Source: Verrucomicrobium sp. BvORR034 (GTDB taxonomy: Bacteria > Verrucomicrobiota > Verrucomicrobiia > Verrucomicrobiales > Verrucomicrobiaceae). From it: a stretch of DNA of 64,000 nt. Positions 1-30,322 of the stretch are shown here, piece by piece. Position 1 is the first letter of the stretch. Every line of letters starts with the position of its first letter. The notes under the pieces were generated by a model that was not told the origin of the DNA, made no database searches, and was given only the letters and a program-made list of their open reading frames with translations. A program made the position numbers and the translations under genes. Location: the NCBI RefSeq assembly GCF_000739635.1, contig NZ_BATQ01000163.1, positions 1 to 64,000 on the forward strand, in the 5' to 3' direction.

Positions 1-87
1 CTACGCGGTCGCCAGCGCCCCTGCCCCCAATCGCGCTCCTCCTCGCCTGGCACAGCCAAATCACCGCCCCCGCTCCGCAGCAGGGTT

Positions 88-112
88 GGAGTACCGTCCC
101 GCATGCGGGACC
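88..112 (+). repeat. REP-like palindrome, GTCCCGCATGCGGGAC core
   Basis: GGAG (88-91) is followed by TACC and the perfect palindrome GTCCCGCATGCGGGAC (96-111). The left flank CAGCAGGGTTGGAGTACCG is identical to that of the element at 2588, although the core differs. A GGAG foot next to a palindrome is the architecture of REP elements mobilised by RAYT transposases. Confidence 0.7.
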
Positions 113-410
113 AATGCCATCAGGGAAAAGTGGAGAGGTCGAGCATCTCCCTTTTGTGAAAGTATTGAACCCGGACCTTCGGCCCTTCTGAAAGGGGCTC
201 ACCAGTTACAGTCGTGGCGGATGCGCCATCGCGGCTCCGAGGCTCACCAACGCAAATCAGCAAGGCTATCTATTCCCTGATGGCATTGGCTTTTAAGCGG
301 AATCAGGAAGCGAGTGACCCTTGATAGCGCTCCCGGTGAGTCGCTCCCGACGGGCCAGCGATGGCTTGGGAATCTTGGGCGGGATTTACGCCATGAGACG
401 TGCGGGGCGT

Positions 411-434
411 GATTCCGCTTAAAAGCGGTACTCC
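411..434 (-). repeat. REP-like hairpin, CCGCTTTTAAGCGG core
   Basis: Read on the minus strand this is GGAG-TAC-CGCTTTTAAGCG-GAATC: the same flanks as the GTCCCGCATGCGGGAC elements but with a shorter core (6-bp stem, TT loop). A truncated relative lacking the left arm lies at 289-308. Confidence 0.65.
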
Positions 435-593
435 AACCCCGGCGCGAATATCCACTGGGACAAAGGAACCCACCCCACCCTGCTGAAGCCCTTGCTACCC
501 TTCGTGCCTTCGCGCCTTCGTGTGAAAAAATGCATTCGCCACTCCGGCGGGACGCCAGTGTCACTTTTACTCCTAGAACCAGCAAGAGTTGAA

Positions 594-1229
594 TCAAGAC
601 GCCGGTTCTGACCGCACCTGAATCAACACCCGATCCCTGGGCGTGAACTGGAGCCTGCTCCTGGCTCTGTTCAACCAGGACCAGCGTGACTTCGCGCGCA
701 AGGCCCGGCCCTCGTCCGCGATGAAAACAATACGGCCAGCCTGGCTATCCAGCGGAGGCCGGATGGGGAAATACCGTACGATGACTCCATCAAAGTGGGG
801 CTGCGTATAGGACAGGGTCGCCTCGAACTCGTTGCCGAGATATCGCAACGGCACCTCGCAGACGTAGGTCTGCAGATACCAATCTGGCGGCGGGATGGAG
901 AGACCGTTCCACTTCTTTGCCCGATAGATACGCTTCCCGACGGTGATGGAGGGATCCACAGCAGAATGTGCCCCCTGCTGGGGCGGTTCAAACACGGGAA
1001 CGAGGATCTTGACGAGCGTGTCCTTTGAAACTTTCTCTTCGGTGCTCGTGGTCTCCAGCTTGAATCGGTAGACGCCTTTCACCTGCGACTTCCCTGCTTT
1101 AACGGCAATCGTGACCTCCTCGTGGATCATGGTCGAGGAGAGCTTGCCGTCGTCATACACCATGGGATTGGCCACGGCTTGGACCGCAAGGAGGCAGAGG
1201 GCTAGCAGAGTGTGGATGCAATGGCTCAT
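594..1229 (-). CDS. Secreted protein of unknown function
   Basis: This 211-residue protein begins with a clear Sec signal peptide. Residues 1-20 form a short hydrophobic run (TLLALCLLAVQAV) ending near an ANP cleavage-like site, so it is probably periplasmic or envelope-associated. The mature part alternates polar and beta-prone segments (for example TIAVKAGKSQVKGVYRFKL) and has an aromatic-rich stretch around residues 110-155. The C-terminus turns basic (residues 180-195). I recognise no catalytic motif or named domain. It stands alone on the minus strand between the first repeat block and two small membrane-protein genes, and the start is the only sensible Met before the hydrophobic run. 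Function is unknown; a small beta-sandwich envelope protein is a guess. Confidence 0.6.
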   Translation of the reverse strand: MSHCIHTLLALCLLAVQAVANPMVYDDGKLSSTMIHEEVTIAVKAGKSQVKGVYRFKLETTSTEEKVSKDTLVKILVPVFEPPQQGAHSAVDPSITVGKRIYRAKKWNGLSIPPPDWYLQTYVCEVPLRYLGNEFEATLSYTQPHFDGVIVRYFPIRPPLDSQAGRIVFIADEGRALRAKSRWSWLNRARSRLQFTPRDRVLIQVRSEPAS

Positions 1230-1329
1230 AAGGCGCTACCAGGATTGTACGCTGTATTGACGCTGATGTCTCACGACGAAGAAGATGGCAATGCCAGCGC
1301 CGACGGCGGCGAAAGGCCACGCGGACCCG

Positions 1330-1662
1330 CTAGTGCGGATGGTGATGAGGAAGGGCAAAAGGAAGATCCAGCACAGATCCGCGCCTCCCCCCTTCACCTC
1401 TCAAGAATACCAGCACTTTCCAACCAAAGACGACAACGAGGGGTACAGCAACGAACCCCCACCAACCACTGATCATGGCCGTGAAGAACAGGTAGATGGG
1501 GAAGAACAGCGCCTGCCATCCGATGGCCGCAAAGGACTTGAGGCCATGTGCAAGCAGGAGTGGCGTGAAAGCCCCCAGGGTGCCAACGCCCCACGCAAGC
1601 AACAAACGTACCGGCAAGGAGGCGACGGTCGAGGCAAAGACTTCAGCAGGATCAATACGCAT
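1330..1662 (-). CDS. Small membrane protein of unknown function
   Basis: About 110 residues from the preferred start (MRIDPAEVFAS). A longer reading from 1707 would add 15 residues of unlikely sequence (MECLIDRWSNPP...). Three hydrophobic segments can be seen: about residues 15-38 (LLLAWGVGTLGAFTPLLLA), 43-62 (IGWQALFFPIYLFFTAM) and 67-85 (FVAVPLVVVFGWKVLVFL). The tail is short, basic, then His-rich. This looks like a three-TM inner-membrane protein, similar in size and style to the other small membrane proteins between 1.3 and 4.1 kb. No family is recognised. Because it sits between repeat blocks, it may belong to a locally duplicated and decaying set. Confidence 0.5.
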   Translation of the reverse strand: MRIDPAEVFASTVASLPVRLLLAWGVGTLGAFTPLLLAHGLKSFAAIGWQALFFPIYLFFTAMISGWWGFVAVPLVVVFGWKVLVFLRGEGGRRGSVLDLPFALPHHHPH

Positions 1663-1779
1663 GACAACCAAAGGTGGATTTGACCATCTGTCGATTAAAC
1701 ACTCCATGCCGAATGACGTGAGGTCAATGACATGACACCGGAAATTCTGAGATTCAAAAACCGGGAAGATTCTTCCACC

Positions 1780-2255
1780 TTAGACGGCAACTTCATCTGC
1801 AAGTTCTGGGGACTTGCCAAAACCAAAGTAACGCCGACTGGGACGCCCCAGGATGAAGCGCCATGCCAGGAGGATGATCAGGAAGGCAGCGGTGAAATGG
1901 AAAAGCATGTCCCAAAAAGAGAAGGGAATTTCCTCGGGGGATGTGACAGCCGGAAGGATGCAAAGAGGTAGACTAGCTGATTGCTCCTCACGACAAAGAA
2001 CATCAGCACCGCCGAATTCAAATAGTAGACCCATCGACGGCGACCTCCACAGCACATAGAGAAGATCGCAACGATGACTACGATTGTTGACGCAAACAGA
2101 GGCGGCAGCCTCAGAAACTGACCGAAGGATTTGTCCAAGAAAGCACGAAATAGAATCAGAATAAACACGAAGGTCATGAACCCAAAGATTCCGATCACCC
2201 AACGATGGGAAGCGGGTCTGGGAGGAAGAGATTCAGAACGAGCTGGCGAACTCAT
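1780..2255 (-). pseudogene. Small multi-TM membrane protein, frameshifted
   Basis: The 5' part, starting at MSSPARSESLPPR, encodes three hydrophobic stretches (WVIGIFGFMTFVFILILF, FASTIVVIVAIFSMCC and YYLNSAVLMFFVV) in one frame down to about 1960. That frame then continues as implausible sequence and stops at 1878. In the adjacent frame the reading resumes convincingly with PAVTSPEEIPFSFWDML, another TM segment (AAFLIILLAWRFIL) and the tail RRYFGFGKSPELADEVAV, ending at a TAA at 1780. One base appears to be missing around 1955-1962. The tail is supported independently by a second copy of the same 3' end at 3285-3356 (RRYFGFGKLPKLADEDAI). It may be a true pseudogene or a sequencing error. Function is unknown. 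Confidence 0.55.
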
Positions 2256-2292
2256 CGACTGGCTATGGGAAACGGGAGTTGGAAAGTAAGAT

Positions 2293-2319
2293 GGAGTGCA
2301 GTCTCGCATGCGGGACTGC
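2293..2319 (+). repeat. REP-like palindrome variant
   Basis: GGAGT is followed by GCAGTCTCGCATGCGGGACTGC, an imperfect palindrome with one mismatch that shares the CGCATGCG centre with the other elements but has different outer arms. It lies immediately upstream of the frameshifted membrane-protein gene. Confidence 0.6.
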
Positions 2320-2587
2320 GCCAGGGTGCGGAAGGTGGAATGAGCAATTTAAATATCAACCACCAATAGAGCTGCAACGGATGAGGCGCTGTAACGGAAA
2401 AACACGTGTTTAGAAGGCATTGGGGCGTTGTGTGGGCATGAAACTCAACCACTCCGGCGACGGTTGCCGATTGCCAATCGGCGGCACAGCAGATTGCCAA
2501 TCTGCGCTACGCTGGAGCCAGCCTGCTCCATCGGGCTCCTCCCCGATTGGCACAGCCAAACCATCACCCCCGCTTCGCAGCAGGGTT

Positions 2588-2615
2588 GGAGTACCGCTTT
2601 TAAGCGGAATCAGGA
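2588..2615 (+). repeat. REP-like hairpin, CCGCTTTTAAGCGG core
   Basis: GGAGTA precedes CCGCTTTTAAGCGG (2594-2607), followed by AATCAGGA. The flanks are identical to those at 10492-10525, where the core is the longer palindrome CCGTCCCGCATGCGGGACGG. This is the clearest example of core exchange within constant flanks. Confidence 0.7.
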
Positions 2616-3284
2616 TGCGAATGTCCTTGATATTGCCCGCGGTGGATGCGGGCGACCAGTTGGTGGTTGCCAGGAAGTCCTGGGAAGGATTCACGCCATG
2701 GGACGCGTGAGGAGTGATTCCGCTTAAAAGCCAATGCCATCAGGGAAAACGCATCGTCTTGCTGTTTTGCCTTGGCGCGCCTCGGAGCCGCGATGGTGCA
2801 ACCGCCACGACTGTAACTGGTGAGCCCCTTTCAGAAGGGCCGAAGGTCCGGGTTCATACCAGCCTGGGGCAACGCCCCAGGGATAGATGGCCAAACTACC
2901 CTTGAGGGCTGTAGGCCCGGTGTCATCAAATCTGCCTATGACGAGCATCCCTGAATGACGTCGGGCCTACAGCCCTCAACATCTAAAACGAGCGCCTGCC
3001 TTGGGCGTTGCCCAAGGCTGCAATGATGCCGGACCTTCGGCCCTCAATACTTTCACAAAAGGGAGATGCTCGACCTCTCCCCTTTTCCCTGATGGCATTG
3101 GTCCCGCATGCGGGACGGTACTCCCACCCCGGCGCGGACCTCTTCTGAGACTAAGGACTCCTCACCGCCCTGCTGAAGTCCTTTCAACCCTTCGTGCCTT
3201 TGTGCCCTCGTGTGAGAAACATGCATGCTTCACTCCGGCAATCTGTGCCACGAAGCTGAGCGACTCTACTCCGGCCAAGATGAA

Positions 3285-3356
3285 GTTCTTCCACCTTAGA
3301 TGGCATCTTCATCTGCCAGCTTCGGGAGCTTGCCAAAACCAAAGTAGCGCCGGCTG
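3285..3356 (-). pseudogene. Duplicated 3' end of the 1780-2255 membrane-protein gene
   Basis: Bases 3285-3356 match 1770-1840 closely in the same orientation. Read on the minus strand they encode RRYFGFGKLPKLADEDAI followed by TAA, against RRYFGFGKSPELADEVAV-TAA at the first locus. The similarity continues a few bases past the stop. No 5' portion of the gene is present, so this is an orphan tail directly behind the 3377-3748 gene. It supports the reading frame used for the end of the first copy. Confidence 0.6.
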
Positions 3357-10290: not shown

Positions 10291-10789
10291 GGTCAGGGAT
10301 AGATGGGAGCGGTGGGGCGGTTAGGCGTGCTGGGTAGATGGGAGTTGGTCCCTTCGGAGCCCAGTGCGTCAGTGGGCAGTGCGTCAGTACATCAGAAGGG
10401 GGTGGTTTGGGAGTGATGGGTGTTGGAGCACGCCGAATGTGAACAGGGCGGTGGATGCTCTAGCTGGTGAGTCCAGGTCCGCGCCGGGGTTGGAGTACCG
10501 TCCCGCATGCGGGACGGAATCAGGATTCGTTCGGCCCTTAAAGGTTGCTCGCGCTGGGACACGCCCGCCCGGCCAGCGACGGCGTAGCCCAGATTGGCAA
10601 TCGGCACGGATGGCAAGAGCGGAGAAGATGTATTCTCACACGAAGGCACGAAGAGTTGAGGCCCTTGGAAAAGCAGGCGGGGCTCCCAGCCCCGCTCACT
10701 CTCTGCCCCGCCCCAGCATCCAGCATCGCAGGCTGAAGCCTGTACTCCCTACAGCTTCAGCCCCAACACCTTGACCACTGACGCACCGC
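10291..10789. repeat. Intergenic repeat mosaic
   Basis: About 500 bp with no credible gene between the TPR gene and the ABC exporter. It holds a perfect REP-like element (10492-10525), an inverted GATTGCCAATC phrase (about 10589-10603), and an inverted copy of the CTTCGTGCCTTCGTGTGA phrase (10633-10655). Near both ends the phrases GTGCGTCAGT and TGACGCAC occur. Several modules are shared with 430-540, 3118-3238 and 27380-27450. Confidence 0.7.
10492..10525 (+). repeat. REP-like palindrome, 20-bp perfect core
   Basis: GGAG (10492-10495), TA, then CCGTCCCGCATGCGGGACGG (10498-10517), a perfect 20-bp palindrome, followed by AATCAGGA. This is the best-preserved copy in the window. Confidence 0.75.
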
Positions 10790-24286: not shown

Positions 24287-24610
24287 AGGGTTCGTGGCGC
24301 TTGGTTGCGAGGATGGAGGCATGATGAGCAGTGTCGGAAAATGAGTGGGTAAGGGGCAAACTTCAATGCCTGCGACTGATTCCGTCCCGCACGCGGGACG
24401 GTACTCCAACCGTGCTGCGGACGTCTTTAGTACACTGAATGGGAAGTCGCGCTGTTCGCGGCTGCTGCCTGCGAGCAGGGCAAAGGGACTTCCAAGCCTC
24501 ATGAGAAGGCCCGCGGCGTGGTTGGAGCACCGTCCCGCGTGCGGGACGGAATCAGTCGCGCAAAAAACCCAGCGTAATTATTATACCTCGAACCCGCAAA
24601 ACGAAGCCCC
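24287..24610. repeat. Inverted pair of REP-like elements between genes
   Basis: 324 bp with no gene. Two REP-like elements face each other: on the minus strand at 24378-24408 (core CCGTCCCGCACGCGGGACGG) and on the plus strand at 24524-24557 (core CCGTCCCGCGTGCGGGACGG). Both have GGAG feet and AATCAG/TGATT flanks. They are about 125 bp apart, giving a REPIN/BIME-like arrangement. The inner segment contains CGCGCTGTTCGCGGCTGCTGCCTGCGAGCAG-type GC hairpins. Confidence 0.75.
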
Positions 24611-25196: not shown

Positions 25197-26177
25197 ATGA
25201 AATTCCTCCCGCTCCTCCTCGTCGCCAGCACCATCCCCCTCTCCTCGCACGCCTGGGGGCAAACAGGGGACATCGTCGCCAGTGACCTTGCGGGATACCA
25301 CCGGGTCACGGTGCGCGCCAATTCCGCCAAGGTCATTGGTGCGAATTTTGTGCGCACCTCGGTGGCGGTCGGCAAGCTGGAAAGCTCCGCGACCAATACC
25401 CTCTCTGACAACGACGTGGACTTCACCGTGCAACTGTCTCCAGACGTTGCCTACTGGGTGGAGATCACCAGCGGGGTCAACAAGGGACTGGCCAGCACTG
25501 TCAGTTCTTTCACCCAGCATGGATTGGTCACGGAGGACGATCTCTCTGCCTTCTGCGGGCCTGGAGACACCTATGCGGTGCGTCCAGCCCACACCATCGC
25601 GAGCCTCTTTGGCGCGACCAACTCTGCCGGTCTCCGGGCAGGGGCCAGCTCAGCCACGGCCGATACGGTGGAGGTGCCGGATGGCCAGGGTGGACTGACA
25701 GTGGTGTACTACAGCAACACCGCTCCGGCTGGATGGCGGACCACCACAACCGGAACTGCCGATGCAGCCAATGTGCCGGTGTACCACGTGGACGCGATCA
25801 ACATCACCCGCAACGCCAGTTCCAATCTGAAGCTCACCTTCACGGGATCTCTCCGCAAGAACCCCACTTCCTACGGCATCCTGCCCGGGCTGAACTATGT
25901 GGATGTGAACTATCCACTCGGCACCACCCTGGGCAACAGCACCCTTCAGACGCAGGTCAAGCAGGGTGACAGCACCACAGGTGACCTGGTGTGGATCCCC
26001 AACAGCGCCACAGGCTACAAGAAATACTATTGCACAGCGGCCGGCTGGCGTCTGGTTGGCGGAAACAACACCGACCGTGGCACCGTCGCCCTCACGCCGG
26101 GCATCATCATTGAGCGGCGGGACGTCGCCACCAATATGCAAATCCCGCCGAATGCCGACATTTACGGCGGGCTCTAG
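25197..26177 (+). CDS. Secreted protein, first of a tandem paralog pair (TIGR02597-like)
   Basis: 326 residues. A signal peptide (FLPLLLVASTIPLSSHAWGQ) precedes a secreted beta-rich protein. Segments are shared almost one for one with the next gene: AGYHRVTVRANSAKVIGANFVR, VGKLESSATNTLSDNDVDFT, YWVEITSGVNKGLASTV, GDTYAVRPAHTIASLFGATNSAGLRAG, VPDGQGG, APAGWRTT, RGTVALTPGIIIERRD and IYGGL. I recognise this pattern from the Verrucomicrobium family modelled as TIGR02597, by memory only. The function of that family is unknown; surface or extracellular display is inferred. It lies 61 bp ahead of its paralog, with possible operators upstream. Confidence 0.75.
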   Translation: MKFLPLLLVASTIPLSSHAWGQTGDIVASDLAGYHRVTVRANSAKVIGANFVRTSVAVGKLESSATNTLSDNDVDFTVQLSPDVAYWVEITSGVNKGLASTVSSFTQHGLVTEDDLSAFCGPGDTYAVRPAHTIASLFGATNSAGLRAGASSATADTVEVPDGQGGLTVVYYSNTAPAGWRTTTTGTADAANVPVYHVDAINITRNASSNLKLTFTGSLRKNPTSYGILPGLNYVDVNYPLGTTLGNSTLQTQVKQGDSTTGDLVWIPNSATGYKKYYCTAAGWRLVGGNNTDRGTVALTPGIIIERRDVATNMQIPPNADIYGGL

Positions 26178-26238
26178 GAAATCAAGTTGCCGCCCTTCCT
26201 TATTTCAGCTCCAACCTCAACCTCCACCCACCGCTCCG

Positions 26239-27288
26239 ATGAAGCCTCTGCGCGCCCTCTCCTCCCGCCCCGCTCTCCCCACTGTCATGGGTCTGGCCCT
26301 GATGACGTGCCTGCTCCCGGCGTTCCCCGGAGCGCAGGCTCAGGCGCAGGAGGTGACCACCGCCCAGTCCAATCTGGCCGGATTTCACAAGGTCACGGTG
26401 CGAGCACTGTCCTCCCGGCTCCTCGGGGTCAGCTTTGTGCGGCCCACCGCCATCGCGGGACATCTGGAAAGCACTGCCGCCAACACCCTGACTGACACGG
26501 ACGTGGACTTCACCAGCACGCTCGCGGCAGGTACAGAGTACTGGGTGGAGATCACCAGCGGTGCCCACCAGGGCATGGCCTCCACCGTGACCGCCTTCAC
26601 GGCAAACTCGATCACCACCGAGGATGACCTCTCCCTGTACAGCGCGGCGGGCGATACCTACGCCATCCGGCCGCTGCACACGATCGCCAGCCTCTTTGGG
26701 GCCACCAATTCCGCCGGCCTGCGCACGGGCAGCAGCGCGAGCAGTGCGGACACCATCGTTATTCCCGACGGCCAGGGCGGCACGCAGACGATCTTCTATA
26801 GCACCTCCAGCCCGGCTGGCTGGCGCAACTCCGCCACGGGCACCGCAGATGCCTCCGCCACCCCGGTGTACCATGTGGACGCCCTCACCATCACCCGCCG
26901 CTGGCTCACCAGTCTGAACCTCACCTTCGCGGGCGAACTCCGGACACGCCCCACCCACTACGTGGTCCAGCCCGGGCAGAACCCCGTGAGCGTGAACCAA
27001 CCGGTCAGCGTTACCCTGGCCAATAGCACGCTGCAGGATCAGATTCGGCAGGGCGACAGCGCTACGGCCGATCTGGTGTGGATCCCCAACACCACGAGCA
27101 CCGGATACAAGAAGTACTTCTACACTCCAGATGCCCCACCCCTGACCGCTGGCTGGAAGCTGGTGGGAGGCGATAACACGGATCGCGGCACCATCCCCTT
27201 GGGCAGCGGCATTGTGATCGAGCGGCGTGACCCGGCCACGGCAACGGTGAAGATCGTGCCCGACCCGGCAGTTTACGGCGGGCTTTGA
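26239..27288 (+). CDS. Secreted protein, second of the tandem paralog pair (TIGR02597-like)
   Basis: 349 residues from MKPLRALSSRPALP; the longer reading to 25966 overlaps the first paralog out of frame and is rejected. A signal peptide (LALMTCLLPAFPGAQAQAQ) is followed by the same ordered segments as the first copy: AGFHKVTVRALSSRLLGVSFVR, YWVEITSGAHQGMAS, GDTYAIRPLHTIASLFGATNSAGLRTG, IPDGQGG, DLVWIPNTTS, WKLVGGDNTDRGT and VIERRD, ending VYGGL. The pair probably arose by gene duplication and has since diverged, mostly in its loops. It is followed by a repeat block and then the ECF sigma/FecR pair. No enzyme motif is visible. Confidence 0.75.
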   Translation: MKPLRALSSRPALPTVMGLALMTCLLPAFPGAQAQAQEVTTAQSNLAGFHKVTVRALSSRLLGVSFVRPTAIAGHLESTAANTLTDTDVDFTSTLAAGTEYWVEITSGAHQGMASTVTAFTANSITTEDDLSLYSAAGDTYAIRPLHTIASLFGATNSAGLRTGSSASSADTIVIPDGQGGTQTIFYSTSSPAGWRNSATGTADASATPVYHVDALTITRRWLTSLNLTFAGELRTRPTHYVVQPGQNPVSVNQPVSVTLANSTLQDQIRQGDSATADLVWIPNTTSTGYKKYFYTPDAPPLTAGWKLVGGDNTDRGTIPLGSGIVIERRDPATATVKIVPDPAVYGGL

Positions 27289-29802: not shown

Positions 29803-29875
29803 AAGACAAAAGACAGAAGACCTGAGTGAGCGTGCTGGACGGTGAGAATGCTGCTGGATGGCAGACGCGATCCAG

Positions 29876-30322
29876 CTCCGCTCACCCAACCGGCTGAGGA
29901 CAGCCGGACTACGCCCGCTGCGGCGAAGCAAGGGAGTCCTGCCCTTCAGTGCGTCAGACACGCCACTCATGGTGCCCTGATCACGCCCCCACTCCCAAAC
30001 CTCTTGGTCTGTAGGGCGAGCGCCCCGCTTGCCACCTCAGGAGCCGTTCGCGGCAAGCGGAGCGCTCGCCCTACAGCGTCCTCCGCGGCAAAACGCTGAC
30101 AGATCTCAGACGCCATCAAACTCCGCTCACCCAACCGGCTGAGGACAGCCGGACGACGCCCGCTGCAGCGAAGCAAAGGAGTGCAGCACTTCAGTGCGTC
30201 AGACAAGCCACTCATGACGCCCTGATCACGCTCCCACTCCCAAACCTCTTGGACTGTAGGGCGAGCGCCTCGCTTGCCACCTCAGGAGCCGTTCGCGGCA
30301 AGCGGAGCGCTCGCCCTACAGC
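29876..30322. repeat. Tandem 202-bp direct repeat, each with a long internal hairpin
   Basis: Copy 1 (29876-30077) and copy 2 (30121-30322) are 202 bp each and about 90 percent identical by eye, offset by 245 bp. Each ends with a long inverted repeat. In copy 1 CTGTAGGGCGAGCGC (30009-30023) pairs with GCGCTCGCCCTACAG (30062-30076), extended inwards by CCGCTTGCC/GGCAAGCGG (30025-30033/30052-30060). The element is non-coding. The 554-bp stretch 29803-30356 contains nothing else that I recognise apart from a leader-like GCCCACTGCCCACTG triplet (30331-30352). Confidence 0.85.

Follow-up and report, generated by a model that had tools for sequence, protein, structure and literature searches.

Several ISs insert into REP palindromes, among them IS1397, ISKpn1, IS621 and the IS4-family ISRm22, and nine copies of ISRm22 are described in REPs of S. 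meliloti (PMC1525189). The element analysed here resembles these REP-targeting ISs in that its target is a short repeated palindrome and that the IS4 family is represented among them. Unlike the ISs in that account, the inserter here is mostly a non-autonomous MITE; it duplicates the 8 bp of a hairpin tip and contains REPs of another family. For the IS4 family, duplications of 8-10 bp are given for the subgroups IS4Sa and IS50 (PMC2266710); the 8-bp duplication fits this, and a transposase lying between the same ends matches the NCBIfam IS4 model. The MITE ends begin CCAATGCC, and the comparison with the account in PMC2266710 is at the level of the family, not of the subgroup. GTAG REPs occur with RAYT, and O. 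terrae is the Verrucomicrobia case named in PMC3733652. As in the REP/BIME/REPIN systems with RAYT presented there, the palindromes of this locus are paired and face each other, and an inner doublet is cognate with RAYT flanks, whereas the outer hairpin flanks no RAYT among the RAYT loci inspected (30 in one set, 20 in another). Template switching between inverted repeats is described for yeast genes, with arm homogenisation and spacer inversion as its outcomes (PMC8604942); here, template switching is deduced from two types of alteration seen in bacterial repeats. The parts are thus of known kinds, namely REP, BIME, MITE, IS4 family and RAYT REPs, while their nesting and the replacement of hairpin tips look like a new variant. 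A literature search that ran largely outside subscription journals found no description of these repeats in Verrucomicrobium.

The window, meaning the whole stretch of 64,000 nucleotides analysed, covers the initial 64 kb of contig C38 in the 8.58-Mb draft genome of Verrucomicrobium sp. BvORR034 (G000). Its position 1 is the end of the contig, which leaves the sequence to the left of the first repeat unit out of view. Two relatives of the same genus were compared: G002, which we infer to be Verrucomicrobium sp. BvORR106, and G003, a single contig of 8,220,857 bases that we take to be V. spinosum DSM 4136. According to the original prediction, repeat modules in mixed inverted and direct orientation bracket a gene segment at 594-2255, in a layout resembling a composite mobile segment or repeated local rearrangement. 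Self-comparison of the window recovered all five module pairs. Three are inverted (74-168/3044-3138, 95% identity; 166-269/2753-2856, 92%; 273-305/2715-2747, 100%) and two are direct (426-529/3116-3219, 81%; 30-96/2530-2596, 88%). The main pairs have blastn E-values of 3e-53 to 2e-18 within the window, and therefore lie far beyond chance. A further direct pair, absent from that prediction, links 289-426 with 2596-2731 (74.6%), so the outer units are direct copies and inversion is limited to the elements inserted in them. The left flank, spacer and right flank of both blocks are all in direct orientation.

The mirrored blocks represent a short hairpin repeat present twice, with a small transposon in a hairpin tip of each copy; such repeats are scattered over the genome, and the blocks do not delimit a single large mobile gene segment. 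MITE 1 occupies the left hairpin of copy 1 and MITE 2 the right hairpin of copy 2, and this use of opposite hairpins in two direct units accounts for the mixture of inverted and direct modules. The features are as follows.

1-96, plus strand: left flank of copy 1, a direct repeat of 2507-2596 (81%)
74-448, plus strand: BIME-like unit copy 1, with arm a at 74-96, left hairpin with MITE, spacer at 306-409, hairpin at 415-428 and arm a' at 427-446
97-110, no strand: H1 palindrome TCCCGCATGCGGGA, 14 nt, standing where the 8-nt target copy would lie between arm a and MITE 1
111-289, plus strand: MITE copy 1, short form, 179 nt, with ends CCAATGCCATCAGGGAAAAG / CTATTCCCTGATGGCATTGG and only a stub left of the internal REP doublet
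290-297, plus strand: target copy CTTTTAAG, 8 nt, on the spacer side of MITE 1
426-548, plus strand: right flank of copy 1, a direct repeat of 3116-3239 (81%)
594-1229, minus strand: gene for a 211-aa secreted-looking protein without a family match; orthologue in G002 (82%), none in G003
1330-1707, minus strand: gene for a 125-aa membrane-like protein, collinear in G002 (98% over 106 aa)
1780-2309, minus strand: membrane-protein gene in two frames (1878-2309 and 1780-2202), probably frameshifted
2574-3138, plus strand: BIME-like unit copy 2, with arm a at 2574-2596, tip CTTTTAAG at 2597-2604, spacer at 2613-2714, right hairpin with MITE and arm a' at 3116-3138
2723-2730, plus strand: target copy CTTAAAAG, 8 nt, on the spacer side of MITE 2
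2731-3101, minus strand: long-form MITE copy 2 of 371 nt, in the opposite orientation to copy 1
2836-3046, no strand: REP doublet within the long MITE
3102-3115, no strand: H1 palindrome on the arm-a' side of MITE 2
10490-10522, plus strand: related hairpin unit with an H1 tip; at precisely this position the orthologues of G003 and G002 carry CTTTCAAG
24377-24553, no strand: paired hairpin units that share one H1 variant, which reads GCGTGC from arm a; in G003 the first unit bears CCTAAAGG and the second H1-MITE-CCTTTAGG

The locus is very probably a nest of dispersed repeats, in which a hairpin-targeting MITE with a cargo of RAYT-type REPs sits in a BIME-like unit whose arms later exchanged sequence. 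The first level is the BIME-like unit, composed of two facing hairpins and a spacer and present in two direct copies in the window. At the second level, a MITE with the ends CCAATGCCATCAGGGAAAA inserts into the tip of a hairpin and duplicates its 8 bp; the two window MITEs are mutually inverted because the same end points towards arm a and the hairpins are mirror images. The third level is a RAYT-type REP doublet, carried in the long MITE and collapsed in the short one. After insertion, the arms exchange sequence; a 14-nt palindrome often takes the place of the arm-a tip, and the spacer is able to flip, in both cases probably via template switching or conversion between the inverted arms.

Each outer unit runs arm-hairpin-spacer-hairpin-arm, and the direct copies at 74-448 and 2574-3138 flank the genes. 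Copy 2 has a DNA fold z of -12.3. The uninvaded unit, taken from G003 and G002 at the same loci, consists of the arm GGTTGGAGTACC, the hairpin G-CTTTTAAG-C, GGAATCA and the spacer, followed by the mirror image. The hairpin follows the formula of arm GGTTGGAGTWCCG, an 8-nt tip, CGG and then usually AATCA or TCA, and the spacer between facing hairpins is ~83-104 nt in the four units measured. Exact TTGGAGTACC..GGAATCA occurs 24 times in G000 (25 matches minus one spurious), 7 times in G002 and 46 times in G003, compared to 0 for the reversed control. Among 19 genomes, a similar pattern is present in three of the four of the genus, and the 15 outside the genus gave one match, of different sequence. 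The unit thus consists of dispersed short palindromes in facing pairs, as REP and BIME elements do, and it is named only BIME-like because no inspected RAYT locus carries the outer hairpin. Beside the hairpin pair at 24377-24553 lie two adjacent related genes (25197-27288; 67% identical over 923 columns); G003 lacks both, and the flanks corresponding to 25155 and 27340 are ~54 bp apart there. Elsewhere in the window, 29862-30077 and 30107-30322 are neighbouring 216-nt repeat blocks in the self-comparison, probably a local duplication.

The inserted element has inverted ends of ~20 nt, and its exact end CAATGCCATCAGGGAAA occurs 20 times in G000, 23 times in G002 and 76 times in G003. In a set of 81 sequences, 44 facing end pairs from three Verrucomicrobium genomes were identified, one of them a full-length IS. 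In 42 of these, 179-430 nt without a transposase lie between the inverted ends, as expected of MITEs; the other two are L146, the full IS, and L147, a MITE that another IS has entered. For the 21 pairs free of H1 on both sides, the left and right 8 nt agree at 5.86 of 8 positions, against 4.02 with shuffled partners, and none of 10,000 partner shuffles reached this agreement. In these H1-free pairs, flank agreement peaks only at length 8 (0.73, with no other length between 3 and 12 exceeding 0.37), and five of the 21 have an exact 8-bp duplication. Both window MITEs carry H1 on one side, and neither has a plain 8-bp duplication.

Analysis of the bases around the insertions revealed complementary triplets immediately outside the 8-nt target in 37 of 44 pairs, compared to 1.8% of random window sites, with seven of the 44 targets failing this 3-bp stem test. 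Moreover, the two outer pairs within the target are complementary in 44 of 63 non-H1 8-mers, against 6.6% at random sites. The target of the MITE is therefore the tip of a small hairpin, usually CCG-N8-CGG. Empty sites are found in sister genomes for window copy 1 (G002) and window copy 2 (G003), and the site L107/L088 is MITE-filled in G003 and empty in G000. The long MITE of the window shares 98.9% identity with the closest of the G003 copies located elsewhere, above the ~90% of the syntenic backbone, which suggests recent spread or exchange. MITE ends also lie in the first 300 bases of the G000 contigs C19, C32, C48, C113, C162 and C174, and the repeat probably causes many of the assembly breaks in this draft.

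Repeats of the same family as the doublet inside the long MITE flank a RAYT gene on either side in G003 (L021) and in G002 (L024), and the best E-value of the doublet against the RAYT flanks is ~1e-19. These two RAYTs share 97% identity, and L024 lies ~18 kb from the syntenic locus in G002; the closest RAYT among the eight G000 loci compared reaches 46%. Across the RAYT loci L016-L039 (G000-G003), each genome has several RAYTs, many of which are flanked by palindromes of their own that differ between RAYT groups.

A candidate for the mover of the MITE is found at L146 in G002, where an IS4-family transposase in two overlapping frames lies between ends common to the MITEs. The frames match NF033592 with E-values of 5e-22 and 4e-12, each under the curated cut-off for the whole protein. 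Of four genomes of the genus, G002 alone has this IS, as a single copy; it has ~26-36 bp of its ends in common with the MITEs, and its own flanks agree at 1 of 8 positions, without an 8-bp repeat. Judged from the shared ends, an IS4-family transposase probably moves the MITE. L147 was also considered as the parent IS and was rejected, as it proved to be a 325-type MITE into which a different IS4-family IS has inserted. At L147 511-2198 (G003:1509810-1511497), that IS, with the ends TAAGCGCTAACTTAA, sits in the REP hairpin of the MITE with TGGGGCGCTGCCCCA on both of its sides, forming a fourth level of nesting.

H1 (TCCCGCRYGCGGGA) has 68 copies in G000, 14 in G002 and 43 in G003. Beside the MITE, it stands in for the 8-nt copy at 24 of the 35 sides facing arm a, at none of the 29 facing the spacer and at 1 of the 24 left unclassified (arm-a versus spacer sides, Fisher p 1.7e-9, ignoring kinship among copies); the arm labels were assigned by pattern, one 'a' side at L099 is probably a spacer side and the H1 of L163 is decayed, which leaves the direction of the result unchanged. 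H1 is present in 7 of 24 exact MITE-free units in G000 and in 0 of 53 in G002 and G003 together. Replacement of the tip with the flanks intact is seen at three places in alignments of at least 1.2 kb, namely window 10490, window 24377 and L079 3825, where the orthologues carry CTTTCAAG, CCTAAAGG and CCTTTAGG, respectively. The pair L048/L049, with a main similarity of only ~190 bp, was not counted as an orthologous tip swap. In addition, the spacer of copy 1 has opposite orientations in G000 and G002 (z 7.4 for the inverted and 0.9 for the direct comparison). We infer that template switching is the likeliest cause of tip replacement and spacer inversion together. One may go further and regard the hairpin tips as interchangeable cassettes, in which an active, arm-a-polarised process would swap the 8-nt tip for the 14-nt palindrome at fixed places, leaving stem base and flanks intact and being fed by MITE insertion and loss; this extension is tentative, and we rather doubt it. 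Precise insertions, spacer inversion and tip replacement relative to relatives, together with the lack of 594-2255 at its syntenic place in G003, bear out the repeated local rearrangement that had been proposed for the window.

The pattern of H1 also bears on whether recombination or gene conversion alone produced the family, with MITE-bearing units arising once and spreading via shared arms with little transposition. The presence of H1 on most arm-a sides and on no spacer side looks as if a founder had been copied, and both hairpins at 24377-24553 have the same H1 variant, as arm homogenisation would give. However, exact 8-bp duplications occur with differing tips (CTTAAAAG, CGTAAACG, TCTATAGC, CCTTCAGG and GCTTCAGC), which require independent insertions, and some targets lack arm a entirely. 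Since the exact duplications vary, conversion is excluded as the sole route for the MITE family, and we consider this account improbable; conversion is a likely way for H1 replacement to have come about, and perhaps explains the two window copies.

With nested insertion and later arm exchange as the preferred reading, the enclosed genes can be compared among relatives. The gene for the 211-aa protein is present in only two of 29 genomes, G000 and G002. In G002, 410-1747 is collinear at 87% and lies between two MITE-free units, and the remainder of the segment is different. In G003, one unit is in place, 594-2255 is absent from the syntenic spot, and a 348-aa gene missing in G000 lies to the left of the remaining unit. 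Gene loss in G003 by a simple crossover between units was rejected, as the remaining unit retains the left flank of copy 2. The direct repeat of 1765-1840 and 3282-3356 (86%) shows the tail of the probably frameshifted gene at 1780-2309 as a remnant beyond copy 2.

If the blocks were instead the ends of one composite element moving the genes at 594-2255, two related blocks flanking genes and the absence of these genes at the syntenic place in G003 would be expected, as observed. Yet the blocks are direct copies of a unit that stands singly at many other places, G002 has both units without MITE around partly different genes, and G003 has a unit without the genes. As insertions, the MITEs have borders and empty sites of their own. 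The window proteins gave no match in Pfam (five tested) or NCBIfam (three tested), and thus none of the tested enclosed proteins matches a transposase or recombinase family. The locus varies among G000, G002 and G003, but their comparison gave no sign of genes moving with the repeats, and the segment does not move or vary as one repeat-bounded unit. A composite mobile segment is therefore highly unlikely; of the predicted absence or inversion of 594-2255 in relatives, the absence is found in G003, and no inversion is seen against G002 or G003. An assembly artefact, with repeats collapsed or misjoined at the contig end, is scarcely credible: the window does start at a contig end and several G000 contigs start less than 300 bases from MITE ends, but the same composite structure occurs in the single-contig G003 (L014 3153-3601 and 13206-13756), and G002 and G003 both preserve synteny in the flanks.

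Stacks of this kind can mimic the ends of a gene-carrying transposon, which calls for caution, and small reading frames within them should not be called genes in annotation. Three kinds of small mobile repeat are stacked at one site, where the MITE depends on the palindrome of the unit that it enters. Altogether, the invaded and uninvaded copies provide natural before-and-after pairs for the diversification of bacterial hairpin repeats.
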